Below are positions 14,710 to 46,847 of a DNA stretch of 64,000 bases, one piece after another. The DNA is taken from assembly GCA_003260325.1 (NCBI GenBank), contig MOLU01000002.1, positions 85,536-149,535 on the forward strand. Reading direction: 5' to 3'. The stretch comes from Candidatus Gracilibacteria bacterium GN02-872 (lineage in GTDB: Bacteria > Patescibacteriota > Gracilibacteria > BD1-5 > UBA6164). The notes under the pieces were generated by a model. It saw nothing but the letters and a program-made list of their open reading frames with translations. It did no database searches and had not been told where the DNA came from. Within the stretch, counting starts at the first letter, position 1, and the number at the start of each line of letters is the position of its first letter. The translations under genes were made by a program, and so were the position numbers.

Positions 14710-16596
14710 TTAAACTCTAGTTGTATTTTCTACTTCTCAGTCAACAACTCAGTCATCAGATTTATTTTCTGTTTGATTTGATGAAGTATCTCATCCAGCT
14801 TGGTAAATCTTTTGTCATACTTTCATCATTTCATCATTTAATTCTTTTGTAGGAGCTTCAAAATCAGTTCAAGAAGCATTTGGATTTCATAAGATTTCTT
14901 TTACTTTTCAGATTTTTTCTTCTAGAGATTTTTTATCAGCTTCATCTATTTTATCAGCATTATCTCTTATCAATTTTTCAGCTTGAGCAATTGTAGAGTC
15001 TGCGTGATTTCTAGCATCAGCTTGAGATTTCTTTTTTTGGTCTTCTTCTCTTTTGGCTTCAGCTTCTTTTACTAGTTTATCTACTTCTGCATCATCCATT
15101 CAAGTTGAACCTTGAATTGTGATATTTTGAGTTTTTCCTGTTCATTTATCTTTTGCTGTTACTTTTAAAACTCAGTTTGCATCGATATCAAAAGTAACTT
15201 CTATTTGAGGAACTCATCTTGGAGCTGGAGCTATTCCATCAAGAATAAATTTTCAAAGAGATTTGTTATCAGCAGCCATTTCTCTTTCTCATTGTAAAAC
15301 ATGAATCTCAACACTTGGTTGATTATCAACAGCAGTTGAGAAAGTCTCTGATTTAGAAGCTGGAATAGTTGTATTTCTAGCTATCATTGGAGTCCTGATT
15401 CCTCACATTGTTTCTATTCAAAGAGTTAGAGGAGTTACATCCAAAAGCAAAACATCAGTTACATCTCAACCAATAATTCAAGCTTGGATTGCTGCTCACA
15501 TAGCTACTGCTTCGTCTGGATTTATTCACTCATTTGGTTTTCTTCCAAAAAATGCTTCAACTTTTTGTTTAACCAAAGGAACTCTTGTAGAACCTCAAAC
15601 AAGCAAAACTTGATTTAATTCACTAGCTTTAAGTCAAGCATCTTCCAAAACTTTTTTACAAGGAATCAAACTTTTTTCAACTAAATCTCAAATCAATTCT
15701 TCAAATTTTGTCTTAGTTATAGTCATAAGTAAATTTTTTGGACCACTAGAATCTACAGTTATATAAGGCAAGTTGATATCATAAGAGTTTGTAGAAGAAA
15801 GTTCTTTTTTAGCTTTTTCTGCTTCATCTCTTACTCTTTGTAAAGCCATAGGATCATTTCTCAAATCTATAGCTTGCTCTTTTTTAAATTCATCAATTAT
15901 GTAATCAACTATTTTTTTGTCAAAATCATCTCAACCTAAGTGAGTGTCTCAATTTGTAGCCAAAACTTCAAAAGTACCTTCTTCACTTAATTCTAAAATA
16001 GAAATATCAAATGTTCCTCAACCTAAATCATAAACTGCAATTTTTTCATTTTTACCTTTTCAAGCTCAGTAAGATAAAGCTGCAGCTGTAGGTTCATTTA
16101 CAATTCTTTTTACTTCAAGTCAAGCTATCTTTCAAGCATTTATAGTTGCTTGTCTTTGGTCATCGTTGAAATAAGCTGGAACAGTGATTACAGCTTCAGT
16201 AACTGTTGTTCAAAGAAATTTTTCAGCATCTTCTCTAAGTTTCATCAAAACATGAGCTCAGATTTCTTCTGGTCTAACAGTTTTTCAGTCAAACTCTATA
16301 AGAGCTTCTCAAGCTGGTCATTTTACAACTTTAAAAGCAACATTTTTTATTTCGTCTTGAACTTCGTCAAATTTTCTACCAATAAATCTTTTTGCTGAGT
16401 AAATAGTATTTGCTGGATTTGTAATAGCCTGTCTTTTTGCTGGAGTTCAAACGATTATAGAACCATCTTTGCTTGCTACGATAGAAGGAGTTGTTCTATT
16501 TCATTCAGCATTTGGGATAACTTTTGCTTCTCAACCTTCCATAAAGGCAACACAAGAGTTAGTTGTTCATAAATCAATTCAAATAATTTTTCACAT
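14710..16596 (-). CDS. dnaK: Chaperone protein DnaK (Hsp70)
   Basis: 628 residues, full length. It begins [21 protein letters not shown], with the phosphate-1 loop intact only if TGA is glycine. An actin-like ATPase domain, a peptide-binding domain and a helical lid follow, ending in an acidic tail. It binds exposed hydrophobic peptides and cycles with ATP. grpE and dnaJ are not adjacent. A CIRCE-like site and a TTGACA/TAAAAT promoter lie upstream, so HrcA control is likely. Confidence 0.97.
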
Positions 16597-16699
16597 ATTT
16601 ATAAAAATTAAGTTTTAAAAATTTTATTAAATGGCTTTAAATTCAGTAAAAATATTTATTTATAAATATTTTTCACTTGAATTATTTAAGCTTGTATCT

Positions 16700-16727
16700 A
16701 TTTTATTCAAAAAAAATATTTTGTCAA
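16700..16727 (-). promoter_or_regulatory. dnaK promoter
   Basis: On the minus strand TTGACA (16727-16722) and TAAAAT (16705-16700) are 16 bp apart. The CIRCE-like repeat ends a few bases upstream of the -35, rather than between the promoter and the gene as in many bacteria. Confidence 0.7.
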
Positions 16728-16734
16728 ATTTATT

Positions 16735-16761
16735 TTAGCACTTTTTTTATTTAGGTGCTAA
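16735..16761. promoter_or_regulatory. CIRCE-like HrcA operator at dnaK
   Basis: TTAGCACTT (16735-16743), a 9-base spacer, then AGGTGCTAA (16753-16761). The CIRCE consensus is TTAGCACTC-N9-GAGTGCTAA, so only the innermost arm bases differ. CIRCE is the known binding site of the heat-shock repressor HrcA. Confidence 0.85.
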
Positions 16762-16782
16762 AATATTTTTAATAAAAGAAAA

Positions 16783-16803
16783 AAGCCAGAATTTCTCTGG
16801 CTT
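16783..16803 (-). terminator. Terminator of cassette gene 1
   Basis: AAGCCAGA pairs with TCTGGCTT, followed on the minus strand by a T run. The same GCCAG-type stem closes the next two cassettes. Confidence 0.75.
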
Positions 16804-16811
16804 ATGTAGAA

Positions 16812-17081
16812 TTATTTTTCTTGAAAAAATCTTTTTAAATCATTTTCAAGAATTGTTAAAGCAGTATTTTCAATGATATTTAAATCAATTCCTAGTCTCT
16901 TTTTTTTTATAAGTTGCAAGTACAAAAGCATTTTGTTTTTCATGCTTTCTCCTTGAGAACCTGTTATACAAGAGATTATTTTATTTAGATTGCAGGCTTT
17001 TTTATGTCCATCAAGGACACTTAATGTAGCTTCATTTAAAGCTTCTGTAATACTAATTTTGTATTTGATTCCAAAGTACAT
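16812..17081 (-). CDS. Small cassette protein 1 (SVLDGH family)
   Basis: 89 residues starting MYFGIKYKISITEALNE. The start is fixed by a strong SD (AAAAGGAG, about 7 bases upstream), unlike most genes in the window. It shares EALNE, a GHK/GHQK segment and LYL-x-x-x-x-x-K-R-x-G with cassette 2, and LSVLDGH with cassette 4. All six glycines are GGN, none TGA. It has its own promoter (TTGACT 17189-17184, TATAAT 17167-17162) and terminator. No known family; probably acquired DNA. Confidence 0.65.
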   Translation of the reverse strand: MYFGIKYKISITEALNEATLSVLDGHKKACNLNKIISCITGSQGESMKNKMLLYLQLIKKKRLGIDLNIIENTALTILENDLKRFFQEK

Positions 17082-17161
17082 TTTTATCTCCTTTTGTTTC
17101 ATGTTTGAGTTAATTTTAGTATTTATTTATTGAAATCGCAAAATAAACTAAAATTGATGAT

Positions 17162-17189
17162 ATTATAAATTATAATAAATTTTAGTCAA
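17162..17189 (-). promoter_or_regulatory. Promoter of cassette gene 1
   Basis: TTGACT and TATAAT on the minus strand, 16-bp spacer. Confidence 0.65.
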
Positions 17190-17210
17190 GTATATTTTTG
17201 AGGTAAAAAA

Positions 17211-17233
17211 AAGCCAGAGCTTTGCTCTGGCTT
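17211..17233 (-). terminator. Terminator of cassette gene 2
   Basis: AAGCCAGAGC (17211-17220) pairs with GCTCTGGCTT (17224-17233), followed by a T-rich run on the minus strand. Confidence 0.8.
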
Positions 17234-17240
17234 GGAAGGA

Positions 17241-17522
17241 TTATGCTGCCTTACTTACCTCCTGTAAGAGAATACTTTTTAATCGCACCTTTACATAGTT
17301 CACTACTGCTGGTATTGACCCCATTCTCTTAGCTCTGTGTATGCCAAGATACAATATCAAACTACGTTTCTTATCTATATTCCCAAGCACATCCTGCCTT
17401 GAAAATATTATTTTTTTAAAGCGCTTTTGATGCCCAGAGAAATCTTTACACCTCTTCAGCTCATTTAAGGCTTCAGTATCACTCAGGAGATAGGACTCTA
17501 GGCTAGCTTTAAGGTTTTCCAT
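17241..17522 (-). CDS. Small cassette protein 2
   Basis: 93 residues starting MENLKASLESYLLSDTEALNE, with SD TAGGAG upstream of the ATG at 17522. It is a paralogue of cassette 1 (EALNE, SGHQKRFKK, LILYLGIHRAKRMG). Glycine codons include GGG and GGC, which are rare in the rest of the window, and none is TGA. It is GC-richer than its surroundings. The promoter is TTGACA (17632-17627) with TATAAT (17610-17605), and a terminator follows. Function unknown; its codon use marks it as foreign. Confidence 0.65.
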   Translation of the reverse strand: MENLKASLESYLLSDTEALNELKRCKDFSGHQKRFKKIIFSRQDVLGNIDKKRSLILYLGIHRAKRMGSIPAVVNYVKVRLKSILLQEVSKAA

Positions 17523-17604
17523 CAAATGGCTCCTATAAGATTAAGTGGACAAAATACCAAGTCTTCCATAAACAGTAAAACTGCTAGAAAAACTAGGTCT
17601 GAGT

Positions 17605-17632
17605 ATTATAGAAAAATAAAATCATTTGTCAA
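17605..17632 (-). promoter_or_regulatory. Promoter of cassette gene 2
   Basis: TTGACA and TATAAT on the minus strand with a 16-bp spacer, about 80 bases before the ATG at 17522. Confidence 0.65.
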
Positions 17633-17644
17633 AAGAAAAAGTAA

Positions 17645-17669
17645 AAAAGCCAGGATTTTCCTGGCTTTT
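17645..17669 (-). terminator. Terminator of the 9-codon leader
   Basis: AAAAGCCAGG pairs with CCTGGCTTTT around a short AT loop. It ends the transcript that carries the tiny ORF at 17680-17709. Confidence 0.75.
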
Positions 17670-17679
17670 GGTTTTTTGG

Positions 17680-17709
17680 CTAGAAATCCCAACCTTCTCT
17701 TATTTTCAT
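17680..17709 (-). CDS. 9-codon ORF with full promoter and SD (stub of a lost cassette gene?)
   Basis: MKIREGWDF then TAG. It has AAAGGAGG 5 bases before the ATG and a promoter TTGCAA (17767-17762) / TATAAT (17745-17740) with a 16-bp spacer, and a terminator follows about 10 bases later. So a complete expression unit surrounds only nine codons. It is either a real leader peptide or a cassette whose body has been deleted. Confidence 0.4.
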   Translation of the reverse strand: MKIREGWDF

Positions 17710-17739
17710 AAGACCTCCTTTAAAAAATAATACCTACTT

Positions 17740-17767
17740 ATTATAAGCCAAATAATTATTTTTGCAA
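17740..17767 (-). promoter_or_regulatory. Promoter of the 9-codon unit
   Basis: TTGCAA and TATAAT on the minus strand, 16-bp spacer. Confidence 0.6.
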
Positions 17768-17781
17768 GAAAAAAGCTAAGA

Positions 17782-17943
17782 TTACTCCTGACTAATACCA
17801 AATATTTGAACCCATATTTCTTGGGAACCAGTCTCTAAGTATTTTAGCATTTTCATTCTTAATCCTAAAGGTATTGGTGATCCTAGTTTTCTACAGAAGT
17901 CATCTCTAACTTCTATAGGTACATATTCTAAATTCAAATTCAT
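17782..17943 (-). CDS. Small cassette protein 3
   Basis: 53 residues, MNLNLEYVPIEVRDDFCRKL onward, with SD AAAAGGAG upstream of the ATG. Five glycines, all GGN. The segment LRMKMLKYLETGSQE recalls the K-x-x-x-LYL region of cassettes 1 and 4. The promoter (TTGACA 18015-18010, TAAAAT 17993-17988) is preceded by a second CIRCE-like repeat and closely matches the dnaK control region. This is the only cassette with an HrcA-type site. Function unknown. Confidence 0.6.
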   Translation of the reverse strand: MNLNLEYVPIEVRDDFCRKLGSPIPLGLRMKMLKYLETGSQEIWVQIFGISQE

Positions 17944-17987
17944 ACAATTCTCCTTTTAAAATTTTGAAAAATGAAAACAGACCTTTT

Positions 17988-18015
17988 ATTTTATAAATAA
18001 AATTTATTTTGTCAA
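17988..18015 (-). promoter_or_regulatory. Promoter of cassette gene 3, dnaK-like
   Basis: TTGACA and TAAAAT on the minus strand with a 16-bp spacer, in nearly the same sequence context as the dnaK promoter. Confidence 0.65.
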
Positions 18016-18022
18016 ATTTATT

Positions 18023-18048
18023 TTAGCATTTTTTTATCTAGGTGCTAA
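18023..18048. promoter_or_regulatory. Second CIRCE-like element
   Basis: TTAGCATTT (18023-18031), 8-base spacer, AGGTGCTAA (18040-18048). It is like the dnaK CIRCE but one base shorter and with a changed left arm (CATT for CACT). The flanks (ATTTTGTCAAATTTATTTTAG) also match the dnaK upstream region, so the whole control segment was copied. Confidence 0.6.
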
Positions 18049-18069
18049 ATATTTAATAATTTAAAGAAA

Positions 18070-18093
18070 AAAGCTAAGCAACTGCTTAGCTTT
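18070..18093 (-). terminator. Terminator after the broken cassette
   Basis: AAAGCTAAGC pairs with GCTTAGCTTT. On the minus strand it follows the stop at 18101-18103. Confidence 0.75.
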
Positions 18094-18100
18094 AAATAGT

Positions 18101-18320
18101 CTATGCGGCTTTTTTCTGAAGAATTCTTCCTGCTTCAGCTAGTATAGCTAGCCTTTGAGAATATCTTTTCCCCCTGTTTTTTGGGGGGGATTTCAAAATA
18201 CTCATCAATTAGTATCCTTAGAATAGGCTACTCTCCGCTTATTCCTTCCTGAAGAATTTTTTGTTCTTCACTGTCATCTGTAAATGACAGTATTATTGCT
18301 TTTTTCTGTTCGTAGTCCAA
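18101..18320 (-). pseudogene. Broken small cassette gene
   Basis: From a TTG at 18320 (SD TAGGAG) the frame reads DYEQKKAIILSFTDDSEEQ, hits TAG at 18228-18230, continues in the same frame (PILRILIDEYFEIPPKKQGEK), then needs a frame change near a C7/A6 run to read RLAILAEAGRILQKKAA before the final TAG. The ending resembles that of cassette 2 (LLQEVSKAA). Promoter TTGACA (18434-18429)/TATAAT (18413-18408). A nonsense codon plus a slip in a homopolymer make this a likely dead cassette. Confidence 0.5.
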
Positions 18321-18409
18321 GTTTTACTCCTATCTTCAATTTGAACACATTTCCTCTCAAAAGACGTGATAGCTGCAATTACAACTTCAGCAAATAAGAG
18401 GAACTTCAT
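18293..18409 (-). CDS. Possible 38-residue ORF overlapping the broken cassette
   Basis: An ATG at 18409 opens MKFLLFAEVVIAAITSFERK and runs 38 codons to TAA in another frame than the broken cassette. No SD. The ATG lies immediately after the -10, so it would be almost leaderless. It may be noise or the real start region before a frame change. Confidence 0.2.
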   Translation of the reverse strand: MKFLLFAEVVIAAITSFERKCVQIEDRSKTWTTNRKKQ

Positions 18410-18451
18410 TATATTCAAAATAAAAATTTGTCAAACAAAAATCAAAAAAAG

Positions 18452-18482
18452 AAAAACCTCAACTTTTAAAGTTGAGGTTTTT
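18452..18482 (-). terminator. Terminator of cassette gene 4
   Basis: AAACCTCAACTTT pairs with AAAGTTGAGGTTT, with A/T runs on both sides. Confidence 0.8.
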
Positions 18483-18484
18483 TA

Positions 18485-18688
18485 TTAAATATTTTTTATA
18501 ATTATTCTTTTTAATGATAACTTTTCAAGTTTCTCTATGAAACTTAGATTTTTTTCACTATGCAGTTCCAAATATTTTATTACTGCAACCTTTAATGGAC
18601 TATCATGTCCATCTAGGACAGATAGTATTTTGGTTTTATACTTTTTTAATTCAAAGCATTTCTCTAACTCATCTTTATAAAAAGACAT
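18485..18688 (-). CDS. Small cassette protein 4 (SVLDGH family)
   Basis: 67 residues, MSFYKDELEKCFELKKYKTK, then ILSVLDGHDSPLKVAVIKYL. The SVLDGH stretch is shared with cassette 1. The start is fixed by AAGGAG six bases before ATG 18688. The only glycine is GGA. The promoter is TTGACA (18781-18776) / TATAAT (18760-18755) with a 15-bp spacer. An inverted repeat, CTTAATC/GATTAAG, lies in the leader. Unknown function. Confidence 0.6.
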   Translation of the reverse strand: MSFYKDELEKCFELKKYKTKILSVLDGHDSPLKVAVIKYLELHSEKNLSFIEKLEKLSLKRIIIKNI

Positions 18689-18719
18689 TTTATGCTCCTT
18701 TTTTAAAAAAAACAACTTA

Positions 18720-18747
18720 CTTAATCACTTGAAAAATCAGGATTAAG
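18720..18747. promoter_or_regulatory. Inverted repeat in the cassette 4 leader
   Basis: CTTAATC (18720-18726) and GATTAAG (18741-18747), the same arms as the tighter palindrome before cassette 5, placed between -10 and SD. Possible operator. Confidence 0.45.
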
Positions 18748-18754
18748 TTTGTTA

Positions 18755-18781
18755 ATTATACTTAAAAAATATTTTTGTCAA
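18755..18781 (-). promoter_or_regulatory. Promoter of cassette gene 4
   Basis: TTGACA and TATAAT on the minus strand with a 15-bp spacer. Confidence 0.65.
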
Positions 18782-18788
18782 GAAAAAG

Positions 18789-18813
18789 AAAACCCCAGCC
18801 TAAGCTGAGGTTT
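18789..18813 (-). terminator. Terminator overlapping the end of cassette gene 5
   Basis: AAACC(CC)AGC pairs with GCTGAGGTTT; the stop codon TAG of cassette 5 lies in its loop. Confidence 0.65.
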
Positions 18814-19021
18814 GTTTCGAAAGGTATCTGAGAAAATACCTTTCTTTTCTTTCTATTTGTTGTTCCTCCAGGTAATTCTTCTCAGATTTCAAACACTCTC
18901 GAATGAAATCCCGGAGATCCTCTCTGAGGAAACTAAAGTTTCCTGAAAGGATTTCTCTTATTTGCTCTATATAAGGAGCAAATAAGGGCTTTATTTTTAA
19001 AAAGTCATCTAACTCTCTCAT
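18800..19021 (-). CDS. Small cassette protein 5
   Basis: 73 residues, MRELDDFLKIKPLFAPYIEQ onward, helical and charged. The start is set by AAAAGGAG just before ATG 19021. The sole glycine is GGA, no TGA. Own promoter (TTGACA 19102-19097, TATAAT 19080-19075), palindromic leader and terminator: the same unit design as cassettes 1-4, though sequence similarity to them is weak. No known family. Confidence 0.6.
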   Translation of the reverse strand: MRELDDFLKIKPLFAPYIEQIREILSGNFSFLREDLRDFIRECLKSEKNYLEEQQIERKERYFLRYLSKQTSA

Positions 19022-19048
19022 TTTTTTTCTCCTTTTTGATGATGAAAA

Positions 19049-19067
19049 CTTAATCAAAGTGATTAAG
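19049..19067. promoter_or_regulatory. Perfect palindrome in the cassette 5 leader
   Basis: CTTAATCA-AAG-TGATTAAG, 8-3-8 without mismatch, between the -10 and the SD. Likely operator or a stem in the 5' leader. Confidence 0.55.
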
Positions 19068-19074
19068 TCTTTAA

Positions 19075-19102
19075 ATTATAAATAAAAACAAGATTTTGTC
19101 AA
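19075..19102 (-). promoter_or_regulatory. Promoter of cassette gene 5
   Basis: TTGACA and TATAAT on the minus strand with a 16-bp spacer. Confidence 0.65.
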
Positions 19103-19169
19103 AGAAAAACTTGAAAAACATGTTTTTTTATGTTATAATTATAAAAATTTTAGAAATTATTATAAAAAT

Positions 19170-19280
19170 ATGAATGAAGATTTGCAAGTAGAAGCTGAAC
19201 AAACAGAATTTGAAAAAATGTTTAAAAAAATAAGTGAAGCAAGAGAAAAATATCAAAAAAGAATAAAAGATGTTATTTAA
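19170..19280 (+). CDS. Possible 36-residue helical protein
   Basis: MNEDLQVEAEQTEFEKMFKK then ISEAREKYQKRIKDVI: short, strongly charged and helix-forming, without glycine. No SD, which matches native genes. A terminator lies between it and proS. Too short for a family call; coding status rests on composition and its isolated, terminated position. Confidence 0.4.
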   Translation: MNEDLQVEAEQTEFEKMFKKISEAREKYQKRIKDVI

Positions 19281-19318
19281 TCAAAAAATCTTTACTTTTT
19301 GCTAAAACTTGATAAAAT

Positions 19319-19344
19319 AAAAATACTTAATTATTAAGTATTTT
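19319..19344 (+). terminator. Terminator before proS
   Basis: AAAATACTTAA pairs with TTAAGTATTTT, then T residues leading directly into the proS start at 19349. Confidence 0.7.
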
Positions 19345-19348
19345 TTTT

Positions 19349-21031
19349 ATGTTAAGACTATCAAATTTTCCTTTTTCTACACTAAAAACTAGGCCAAAAA
19401 TAAGTGATAATATTTCTACAAGTATTCTTTTACAAGGTTCATATATCAGGCAAGCAATGGCTTGAGCTTATGAGTTTTTGCCGATGTGATACAGAGTTTT
19501 GAAAAATATTGAAAATATAATCAGAGAAGAAATGGATTTAGCTGGTTATCACGAAATGCTTTTTAGTATTTTGACACCAAAAGAACTTTGGGAAACGACT
19601 GATAGATGGGAAATTCCAGAGTATTTCAAAGTGCCTGGTTGGGGAACAACAGAGTACAGAATCGCACCAACAGCTGAAGAAAACGTTACAAATATTTTTA
19701 AAGAATATATCCAATCTTACAAAGATTTACCAACTTGTGTTTATCAAATCCAAAAAAAATTTAGAAATGAAAAAAGAGCAAAATCAGGACTTTTGAGATG
19801 AAGAGAGTTTGTGATGAAAGACGCATATAGTTTTCACGCAACAATTGAGGATTTTGAAGAGTTTTATAAAGGTGTAATAAAAGCCTATAATAAGATTTTT
19901 GAAAGGCTTGGAATAGCAAAAGATACAGTTATGGCTGATGCTGATTGATGAGCTATTTCTGATAAAAATTCTCACGAATTTCAAACTTTTTTAGATATTT
20001 GAGAAGATGTGATTGTAATGGATTCAAGTGGTTATTGCTATAACTTAGAACTTGCTTCAGGAATTGCTGACGAAAAAAATATTTCTGAAAAAGAAGAAAA
20101 GTTAGAAATAATTGATTCTGTAGCAGAAATCGTGACAATGGAAAAAATGGCTGATTATTTTAAAGCTCCTCTTTGGAAAATGCTTAAAACTGTGGTTTAC
20201 AAAACTGATTCAGGAAGATATTTTTCTATAATTTTGAGATGAGATTTAGATGTAAATGAGCTAAAAGTAGAGAAATTTATCAGGAAAAAGTTTTCAGAAT
20301 GATTTAAACAGGCAACTGAAGAGGATTTGCAAACCTTATGAACAGTCAGAGGTTTTGTAACTCCTTTGAAAAATTCAAATTTAAAAATTATAAATTTTGC
20401 TGATGAATCTCTAAAATCTGCAAAAAATTATTTTTGAGGAGCAAATTCTTTGGCTAAATCAAGTAAAAATGTAAATATTTCAGATTTAGATATTTTGGAA
20501 TTTGGTGATTTTAATGAACCAATTGAAGGATTTACTTCAAAAAATATTCCAAATGAAAAATTAGTTTTCAAAAGAGCTTCAGAAGTTTGAAATATTTTTC
20601 ATTTATGAAACAAATATACAAAACCTTTTGGAATTACATATTTAGATGAAAATAACAAAACAGTTGATAATGTTGAAATGTGATGTTATGGAATCTGAGT
20701 TTCTAGACTTATGTGAGTTATGGCTGAATATTTTATGACAGAAAATTGAATTGCATGGCCTGAAAATGTAGCTCCATACACACACTACATAATCGTTATT
20801 TGAGAGGAAAATATAGAAAAAGCTGAAAAATTAGCTAAAGAACTTGAGTCAGAATGAAAAACTGTGATTTTGGATGATAGAATGTGAAAAAAATTTTGAT
20901 TTTGACAAAAAGCCAGTGATTGTGAACTTTGGTGAATCCCAAACAGAATTGTTATTTCTCCGAAAACTCTTGATACTTGATGATATGAATTAACAAAAAG
21001 AGGACAAGAAAGCGAAATTATAAAGTTTTAA
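19349..21031 (+). CDS. proS: Proline-tRNA ligase
   Basis: 560 residues, bacterial ProS size. Class II motifs are clear: motif 2 near [20 protein letters not shown], and the C-terminal motif 3 GCYGIGVSRLMG. Between them lies the inserted editing (INS) domain with ELASG-like and DCELWG-type segments around it. It attaches proline to tRNA-Pro and clears mischarged alanine. Glycines in motifs 2 and 3 are TGA in part. No SD; it starts right behind a terminator. Confidence 0.96.
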
Positions 21032-29505: not shown

Positions 29506-30228
29506 TTATTTTGTAATTTTAAATGATTTCATAATTTCATCTAATTCTTTTTCTCCTTCAGCAGAAGTCCCATCATATATTCATTTTGTTACAGTGTAGG
29601 CTTTTTTATCATTTCATTTTTGTAAAACATACTGAGTCATAGACATTTTTTGAGGAATTTGTTTAGAACTTACTTTGTAAGTTATTTTATATCATTTCAT
29701 TCCAGCAAATTCAGTTACTTCTTTTTTAAAATCACTTATATCTAGGCTAATAGCGCTAAATTGCTTTTTTAGATTTTCAATTGAAAGTTCTGTATATTTA
29801 TCAAAAGTATCCAAAGCTTTAGCTTGAGAGTAGTCTTCAAAACCAAAACTTACAGAGCTATTGTTAGTTGTGTTTGAAACTCAAACAGAATTATATCTAG
29901 GATCTTCTAGAGTTTTTAAATCACTAGATTTTTTATAAGAAATCTCATAACCACCTTTTTCGTGTTTGTAAGTAATTACTCAGTCTTTTTCTTGAATAGG
30001 ACTGTCTGAATCCTCCTCTGTTATAGTTCAAGTTTTTGTTTCTTCAGCTTCATTTCAAGTAGAAGTTTTTACTTCAACTCAAGTAGAGGCTTTCTTATCA
30101 TTAGTTTCTACAGTTTTTGTAGAAGTTGCTTCATTACTTCAAGTTGTAACTTTTGGTTGGTCATTTGATTTTCCACAACTTGATAAAGCAAAGACAGAAA
30201 CCAAAGCTATTATTAGATATTTTTTCAT
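29506..30228 (-). CDS. Lipoprotein, family copy 1
   Basis: 240 residues. Signal peptide MKKYLIIALVSVFALSSCGK with a lipobox cysteine, then a Thr/Ser/Glu-rich linker, and a folded domain (YEISYKKSSDLKTL... to the end EKELDEIMKSFKITK). It is paralogous to 30293 and 46149 by lipobox, GYEISYK block and the SFK-I-K end. The layout resembles PsbP/DcrB-like surface lipoproteins, but the family is not certain. Confidence 0.75.
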
Positions 30229-30292: not shown

Positions 30293-30907
30293 TTATTTTA
30301 TAAATTTGAAAGAATTTATGATTTCGTTCAACTCTTTTTCTGTTTCATTAGAAGTTCATTCAACTATTCATTTTGTCAAAACAAAAACCACTCTGTTTTC
30401 TCATTTTTGAAAAACATATTGAGTAATGTTTAGTTTTCTTCAGTTTCAAGGAATAATTATTTGATAAGTTAGCTTATAAGCTTTTTGTCAAGCAAATTTT
30501 GTTTCTTCTTTTTTTATCTCATCTAAATCATACATAATTTTTGCAGTTTTTATAGAAGTTTCTACATATTGCTCAAAATCTTTTATTGCAGAACTAAGAG
30601 AATAATCTTCAAAAACAACATTTGCAGAGTTTCCACTTTTTTTATTGGAAATATTTATATCAGGTCAACTTGAAATATCTTTGTTACGTTTTATTACTTC
30701 ATAATCGCTAGAATTTTTATAAGAAATCTCATAACCAGCTTTTTCATTTTTGTAAGTTTCCAAATCTTTTACAGTTTCAATTTTTCAAGTTAAAATTGTT
30801 TTTTCTGAAGAGTTTCCTGAATTTGTCTCTTTTTTTATTTCTTCAGTTTTTCCACAACTTGATAAAACAAAAACTGAAATTAAAGCAATTGCTAAATATT
30901 TTCTCAT
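30293..30907 (-). CDS. Lipoprotein, family copy 2
   Basis: 204 residues. Signal and lipobox MRKYLAIALISVFVLSSCGK, short linker, then the shared domain (KAGYEISYKNSSDYEVIKRN... ending ELNEIINSFKFIK). It is a tandem paralogue of 29506 with a shorter linker. Its own promoter (30947-30974) suggests separate control. Confidence 0.75.
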
Positions 30908-46148: not shown

Positions 46149-46847
46149 ATGAAAAAATATTTAATTTTAGCTTTAGTTTCAACTTTAGCTTTGACAAGTT
46201 GTGGACAAAAAGAAGAGAAAAAAACTGACACAACAACTTGAACAAAAACTGAAACAAACACTACAGTAAAAACTGGAACTACTGAAACTCCAAAAATTTC
46301 AACTAGTTCAACTGATACTACAACAGCTACTTGATCTGCTGATGCTACTGCAAAAACTTCAACAACTGCAACTACAGGTATAACTGAAGAAAATGGTGTT
46401 TCCATTTTTAAAAATACTGAAAAATGATATGAAATTTCTTTTAAAAAAGCTGATGGGTTAGATGGACAAGTTGGATTTCAAAACACAGAAATATTTATAG
46501 CTGATATGAAAAAATGAAACTCTGTTTCAGTTTTGAGTGAAGATTATTCTAGAGCTCCTGGGATTGTTGATGCAGAAAAATATTTTGAAGAATCAGTTAA
46601 AAACTTAAAAGCAGCACTAAAAGAACAATGAATTAGTGAAATCAAAAGAGAAGATGTTACTATAAATTGAACAAAATGAATAAAAGCTACTTATTCTATG
46701 AGTACACAAGGAAGTAAATTAAATTTTGAACAATACTTTTTTGATAATGGTAAAAAACAAGCATTTATCGTTACAAAAACTGTTGTTTGAGATAATGATG
46801 ATGCAAGATTGACTTCTGTAGTTAACTCTTTCAAATTTATAAAATAA
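46149..46847 (+). CDS. Lipoprotein, family copy 3
   Basis: 232 residues. MKKYLILALVSTLALTSCGQ lipobox, a long Thr-rich linker (about 55 residues) and the shared domain (EKGYEISFKKADGLDGQVGF... ending VVNSFKFIK). It is the unlinked paralogue of the pair at 29506 and 30293. The Thr-rich linker suggests it spans the wall. Native codon use. Confidence 0.75.

Follow-up and report, generated by a model that had tools for sequence, protein, structure and literature searches.

A tandem array of moron-like small genes, probably imported, beside dnaK on a Gracilibacteria chromosome that reads TGA as glycine

Phage morons are independently transcribed accessory genes, and integron gene cassettes are tandem small open reading frames (ORFs) with attC sites and an integrase. 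Two further accounts concern Gracilibacteria themselves. Liu et al. (PMC10746230) report that 34 of 38 predicted Gracilibacteria phages larger than 20 kb were not clearly alternatively coded and that prophages were TGA-dense, and PMC6851277 proposes acquisition from a bacterium outside the candidate phyla radiation for a region of a closed BD1-5 Gracilibacterium genome. Here, we describe an array of seven small gene units that lie on the minus strand between dnaK and proS in a stretch of 64,000 nucleotides of Candidatus Gracilibacteria bacterium GN02-872 (contig MOLU01000002.1, positions 85,536 to 149,535; hereafter the window, in whose own coordinates the array is given). We consider it probable (roughly 60%) that these are autonomous, moron-like units with a standard-code grammar, which were imported and multiplied at a hotspot beside dnaK on a chromosome that uses genetic code 25 (TGA=Gly). 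By standard-code grammar we mean an own sigma-70-type promoter, an AGGAG-type Shine-Dalgarno (SD) sequence, no TGA glycine codon, a TAA or TAG stop and usually a hairpin terminator.

An earlier note on this DNA had placed five intact ORFs of 53-93 codons, one broken copy and one 9-codon stub in tandem on the minus strand, and all of them were found where it had put them (units c1 to c7; Table 1). The reading frame of the broken copy, c3, is interrupted by an in-frame TAG after 30 codons and then changes near a run of C. The short unit c5 is complete in itself despite its 9 codons. A promoter and an SD had been claimed for every unit, and both are indeed there: the promoters of c1 to c7 score 12, 12, 12, 11, 10, 12 and 11 of 12, a value of 12 being reached by none and one of 11 by four of 58 native genes, and all seven units have an SD, compared with a four-base SD core in only 2 of the 58. 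Hairpin terminators, likewise claimed throughout, were identified in six units, those of c5, c6 and c7 being alike, whereas c4 has no clear terminator of its own. Counted on both strands of 16500-19400, promoter-like sites (35 observed, 14.3 expected from shuffles) and terminator-like sites (11 observed, 1.1 expected) were in excess. Judged from these signals, each unit would be transcribed separately by a sigma-70-type polymerase, its translation would start by SD pairing and end at TAA or TAG, followed in six units by the hairpin, and either code should yield the identical protein. An internal in-frame SD and ATG within c7 (16943-16812, minus strand) could in addition start a 43-amino-acid C-terminal fragment.

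Table 1. Features of the array and its flanks (window coordinates; aa, amino acids)
Feature	Span	Strand	Codons	Details
dnaK, native code-25 gene	14710..16596	-		TGA 40/57 glycines
dnaK control region	16700..16761	-		CIRCE-like TTAGCACCT-N9-AAGTGCTAA 16761-16735; promoter 16727-16700
c7	16783..17189	-	89	promoter 17189-17162 (TTGACT-N16-TATAAT); SD 17093-17088; ORF 17081-16812 (89 aa); terminator 16803-16783
c6	17211..17632	-	93	promoter 17632-17605; SD 17535-17530; ORF 17522-17241 (93 aa); terminator 17233-17211
c5	17645..17767	-	9	promoter 17767-17740 (10/12); SD 17720-17715; ORF 17709-17680; terminator 17669-17645
c4	17782..18048	-	53	CIRCE-like element 18048-18023; promoter 18015-17988; SD 17955-17950; ORF 17943-17782 (53 aa)
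c3, broken copy	18070..18434	-		promoter 18434-18408; SD; TTG start 18320; remnant to 18101; terminator 18093-18070
c2	18452..18781	-	67	promoter 18781-18755 (TTGACA-N15-TATAAT); SD 18700-18695; ORF 18688-18485 (67 aa); terminator 18482-18452
c1	18790..19102	-	73	promoter 19102-19075 (TTGACA-N16-TATAAT); SD 19034-19029; ORF 19021-18800 (73 aa); terminator 18813-18790
proS, native code-25 gene, opposite flank of array	19349..21031	+		TGA 24/41 glycines

The codon use of the array sets it apart from its surroundings. TGA encodes 780 of 1117 glycines in the 58 native genes of the window genome but none of the 16 in c1, c2 and c4-c7 (c3 excluded; P=4.7e-9), which agrees with what the earlier note had said of both the cassettes and their mostly SD-less, TGA-using neighbours. 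The glycines of c6, its 'cassette 2' when counted from the low end, are GGG and GGC as it had reported, codons that are rare in native genes. The comparison it had called for also separated the array by other codons (GAG 0.41 versus 0.14, GTT 0.23 versus 0.58), and GC content was raised in c1 (0.35) and c6 (0.38) relative to 0.26. Its proposal that the array had been acquired is thus supported by codon use, SDs and promoters measured against the native genes, together with the wider class of such genes in relatives described below; the import itself is what we infer.

In the way they would work, the array units resemble phage morons. They are likewise single small genes with their own promoter (7/7) and terminator (6/7) among native genes, and their composition is unlike that of the neighbours (in codon use for the whole set, in GC content for c1 and c6 only). 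However, they adjoin dnaK and proS on a bacterial chromosome with no recognised prophage genes, none of the cassettes queried matched a viral contig, and the units are tandem, recombining and set apart from the host by a genetic-code grammar. They are therefore moron-like but do not lie in a phage. Like integron cassettes, they are small ORFs without a known function, set in tandem and all oriented the same way. They differ in having their own promoters and SDs, and no integrase was recognised by eye among window ORFs of at least 120 aa. An integron array was rejected because no attC-like repeats occur between the units, which share no repeats beyond promoter and terminator likenesses. Like the code-11-compatible phages predicted for Gracilibacteria and Absconditabacteria (PMC10746230), the units contain no in-frame TGA and are readable in both codes, and a further resemblance is seen in SD-led genes of relatives with TGA stops soon before TAA or TAG; those phages are whole genomes, whereas the array consists of chromosomal units for which no phage homologue was found with c1, c6 and c7 as queries. 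As for the region in PMC6851277, acquisition has been proposed there for a Gracilibacterium too, but its authors confirmed that the whole of that region is alternatively coded, while the array units lack TGA glycines.

Relationships within the array supported part of the suggestion that it is a repeatedly duplicated family. Comparison by hhalign matched the profiles of c6 and c7 along 57 columns, with a probability of 68% (E=4.9e-5). In a shuffle test of 66 pairs among 12 proteins, c2-c6 and c6-c7 scored above all 500 shuffles (p<=0.002), followed by c2-c4 (p=0.014) and c2-c7 (p=0.046), and it should be noted that about three of 66 pairs are expected below 0.05 by chance. Profile comparison of c7 was weak with c2 (E=0.13) and c4 (E=0.03), each query taken alone, and the single comparison made with c1 gave no clear relation. 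The shared motifs that had been listed were all present: EALNE in c6 and c7, SVLDGH in c2 and c7, and LYL in c6 and c7. Two to four of the array ORFs thus appear to be diverged paralogues, the kinship being good for c6 with c7 and with c2, weak for c4 and not evident for c1. In addition, the control region of c4, including its CIRCE-like element, agrees at 88% with the dnaK promoter region across 49 nucleotides, and the dnaK control region is the likely source of this copy.

Homologues of three ORFs were found in a set of 5.8 billion proteins: 12 of c7 (P0001-P0012), two of c6 (P0013, P0014) and four of c1 (P0015-P0018), all of them known as proteins without their DNA; c2 and c4 were not among the queries. 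Sister homologues with many TGA glycines, which the earlier note had named as a refutation, did not turn up, close homologues being available in this protein form only. Those of c7 are mosaic, in that ITEALNEA, CSTFRN and SVLDGH blocks reappear in varying order and company; in 11 sequences of c7 relatives, all four combinations were present in 30 of the 190 two-state column pairs. The first 12 residues of the c1 relative P0018 are identical to those encoded directly upstream of the c1 start, while its middle differs. The imported units would have multiplied, recombined and decayed upstream of dnaK. Because of this turnover, block shuffling and decay, we may guess, without expecting to be right, that the small proteins act in a fast arms race against phages or other mobile elements. 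No convincing profile match to known defence genes was obtained (PADLOC best, Csn2 for c7, E=0.0029, weak), and none of the five intact ORFs matched Pfam or NCBIfam above the curated cut-offs. The proposed structure check yielded a predicted four-helix protein for c7 (predicted local distance difference test score, pLDDT, 81.6) but no convincing match to this fold or among the sequences of solved structures, and the c6 model was too poor for use (pLDDT 62.9).

The pattern is more general than the window array alone. A promoter plus SD pattern was found in 37 of 48 family genomes, with 59 listed matches compared with 8 for a reversed-pattern control. Of 43 matches examined, in 42 loci, nine preceded bS21, ten had no ORF of 25 codons behind them and the remaining 24 preceded other ORFs (gene names in relatives are assigned from motifs). 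In these 24 ORFs only 9 of 120 glycines were TGA, and six of the nine fell within the final tenth of the ORF; the count is 9/88 when L062 and L077, possible binning contaminants, are left out. The 16S RNAs were located in four of eight relatives searched; their 3' ends read ...GGATGGACTATCTCCTTA, with ...CTATCTCCTTA kept in all four, and AAGGAG can therefore pair. Since the usual 3' end is GGATCACCTCCTTA, the anti-SD in these relatives (L220-L223) is altered beyond CTCCTT.

The search of the lineage that had been recommended found no close counterpart of the c7 family, which gave five weak matches in the 48 family genomes (best E=0.0019), while 353 genomes of the class, a set that contained no known positive, yielded none at E<=0.001. 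It did find other cassettes at the same place: promoter and SD units occur upstream of dnaK in 4 of 30 relatives, 28 of which offered the full 1.5 kb, and all five cassettes are TGA-free. In a fifth genome, G034, an SD-led TGA-free ORF precedes dnaK without a scored promoter. As a background, SD-led ATG ORFs below 210 aa number 36 in relative G037 (1.34 Mb) and 4 in relative G025 (0.97 Mb), that is 0.006-0.04 per 1.5 kb, a density obtained under somewhat different rules. Two of the dnaK-upstream cassette families each occur in only 2 of 48 genomes, both times upstream of dnaK, the G014 member of the second being weak (E=7.7e-4).

Whole-contig tests in the same two relatives, with SD classes assigned mechanically and some false starts included, pointed the same way in G037, whose single contig of 1,343,103 bases includes 32,000 masked ones (TGA 14956/26928 glycines in 1083 genes). 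When only its genes with six or more glycines were counted, TGA was absent from 16 of 42 with a strong SD but from only 35 of the remaining 955 (P=1.2e-11). In ten SD-led ATG genes that contain just one or two TGAs, all 11 of these fell at 0.81 of the ORF or later, versus 16 of 59 TGAs at 0.8 or later in non-SD genes under the same filter (TGA below 0.4 of glycines), which drops SD genes with internal TGA. Such terminal-only TGA is how standard-code genes with TGA stops would look when read in code 25. In G025, four SD-led small ORFs had TGA at 0 of 15 glycines against 13748/18622 (74%) in the genome. Furthermore, an SD-led family of three diverged paralogues, which among the 48 genomes was found in G037 only (E<=0.001), has relatives in 31 plasmid records, of which 28 are from Agrobacterium, with 40-41% identity in the ten listed. 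At least one family of the class therefore has standard-code relatives, although this is the only such case among the relatives' families tried and does not extend to the window cassettes.

Several observations weigh against import of standard-code units. The GC content of c2 and c7 is host-like (0.24 and 0.26), which leaves c1 and c6 as the only units with a clearly foreign base composition, yet c2 and c7 are likewise TGA-free. bS21 is SD-led and nevertheless uses TGA for 3 of 10 glycines, and 5 of 38 SD/ATG ORFs of G037 with at least three glycines, outside the filter of the position test, contain internal TGA. Conversely, EF-Tu (0/40) and EF-Ts (0/19) of G037 are TGA-free without an SD. In G025, no association was seen when genes of 100 aa or more with six or more glycines were compared (TGA-free, 0/4 strong-SD versus 2/743; a contig-edge SD/ATG ORF without upstream sequence, excluded from the four small ORFs above, is probably in this 0/4), and our confidence is slightly reduced by this result. 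The earlier suggestion of a phage or plasmid origin was not borne out: there was no match in viral contigs for c7 (sequence and alignment), c6, c1 and c2, in phage records for c7, c1 and c6, or in plasmid records for c7 and c6 (c4 was queried in none of these sets, and the plasmid records were not searched with c1 or c2, nor the phage records with c2). PHROGs gave weak matches only, the best (E=0.0014) linking c1 to a family of unknown function. Other SD-led genes of relatives had no match in three plasmid/phage and two viral-contig queries, and the array shows no attC-like repeat. Finally, an SD-led family beside tilS looks long resident, a poor fit with recent import.

This last family bears on an alternative that we regard as unlikely, namely that such genes are bilingual, their standard-code readability being maintained for work in, or passage through, standard-code cells such as host bacteria, broad-range phages or conjugative elements. 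The family adjoins tilS in 5 of 48 genomes with identical neighbours on both sides in all five; its members are 35-85% identical, tilS itself 82-96%. None of their 18 internal glycines is TGA, the sole two TGAs being at codons 138/141 and 127/132, compared with 63 of 88 glycines in the neighbours. In four of the five the -10 box is followed by the palindrome GCAATTTTGC, and two of the five have a weaker SD. Long residence with an SD-led, TGA-free grammar suggests selection, and hence that this grammar can be maintained. On the other hand, maintenance could be imitated by import or replacement that recurs at a single site, and high expression with TGA avoidance might also account for the pattern in these genomes. 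The code-11-compatible Gracilibacteria phages reported in PMC10746230 fit bilingual genes, as does a conjugation-type type IV secretion system in Patescibacteria (PMC12102498), although that paper itself favours roles other than conjugation; at the window array no transfer signal was seen. A bolder version, to which we would give only a small chance, is that code-25 bacteria keep a second gene layer under selection for standard-code readability, SD-led and with TGA as stop only, because it is expressed in, or shuttles through, standard-code partner cells; if so, the dnaK array might be a dense, fast-diversifying example of it.

Translational selection offers another explanation, in which the units are very highly expressed native genes whose strong promoters and SDs accompany avoidance of a slow TGA codon. 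The near-consensus promoters and SDs of the array would fit, as would the low TGA use of EF-Tu, EF-Ts and EF-G (8/60) in G037 (55% overall) and of dnaK in G025 (21/57 versus 74% overall). However, dnaK (40/57), an rpsT-like gene (2/4) and a recA-like gene (23/36) of the window genome are near the native mean of 70%, c6 uses the rare GGG and GGC, the TGA-free elongation factors of G037 have no SD, and in G025 an S12-like gene has TGA at 6 of 14 glycines while the SD-led small ORFs have 0/15. Terminal-only TGA in G037 is also not predicted. Expression level is thus insufficient as an explanation, and we think it improbable that it produced the array. Least probable, and a poor prospect, is that the array is left over from the early region of a phage, or from a satellite, that used the standard code. 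Its small ORFs, each with a strong promoter, an SD and mostly a terminator of its own, the mosaicism among relatives and the code-11-compatible phages reported for the lineage (PMC10746230) would suit this reading, but the viral and phage searches were empty for the cassettes tried, PHROGs matches were weak, no phage structural gene was recognised by eye among window ORFs, and prophages of these bacteria are reported in that same paper to be TGA-dense.

Recoded genomes are often thought to be cut off from gene flow. The signature found here, an SD-led gene with GGN glycines only and TGA solely at the very end, appears to mark genes that follow another code. With its help, uncultured symbionts could be examined for imported genes, for contact with phages and for the identity of their partners, and one could test whether genes of this kind only pass through as imports or are maintained in a bilingual state.

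Several further loci were observed. In G037, a tandem of four SD-led TGA-free genes (0/8, 0/6, 0/5 and 0/3 glycines; C1 635225-637526, in L110) is divergent from groESL-like genes and forms what appears to be a second chaperone-side cluster. In the same genome, C1 307107-313219 contains TGA-free genes that we take to be purL-like (0/112) and purM-like (0/37), which suggests recent import. L072 (G033 C4 161248-162065) has two promoter and SD units, 757 bases apart, which head ORFs of just 1 and 7 codons. At L077 (G038), an SD-led 66-aa peptide with the C-terminus FTDSCCH adjoins a radical-SAM-like ORF; both are TGA-free, and the pair may be like a ribosomally synthesized and post-translationally modified peptide system or may be a binning contaminant.

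In the window itself, translation with table 25 yields long ORFs such as dnaK and proS, and seven of the best eight proS relatives are labelled as Gracilibacteria metagenome-assembled genomes (64-72% identical), the eighth carrying a Saprospiraceae label. An Rfam scan of the window gave no match. A TTGAAA-N17-TATAAT promoter (11/12) heads away from the array towards a 36-codon ORF (19170-19280) before proS (19111-19280, plus strand). Three alike predicted lipoproteins, apparently paralogues by eye, are encoded at 29506-30228 and 30293-30907 (minus strand) and at 46149-46847 (plus strand).

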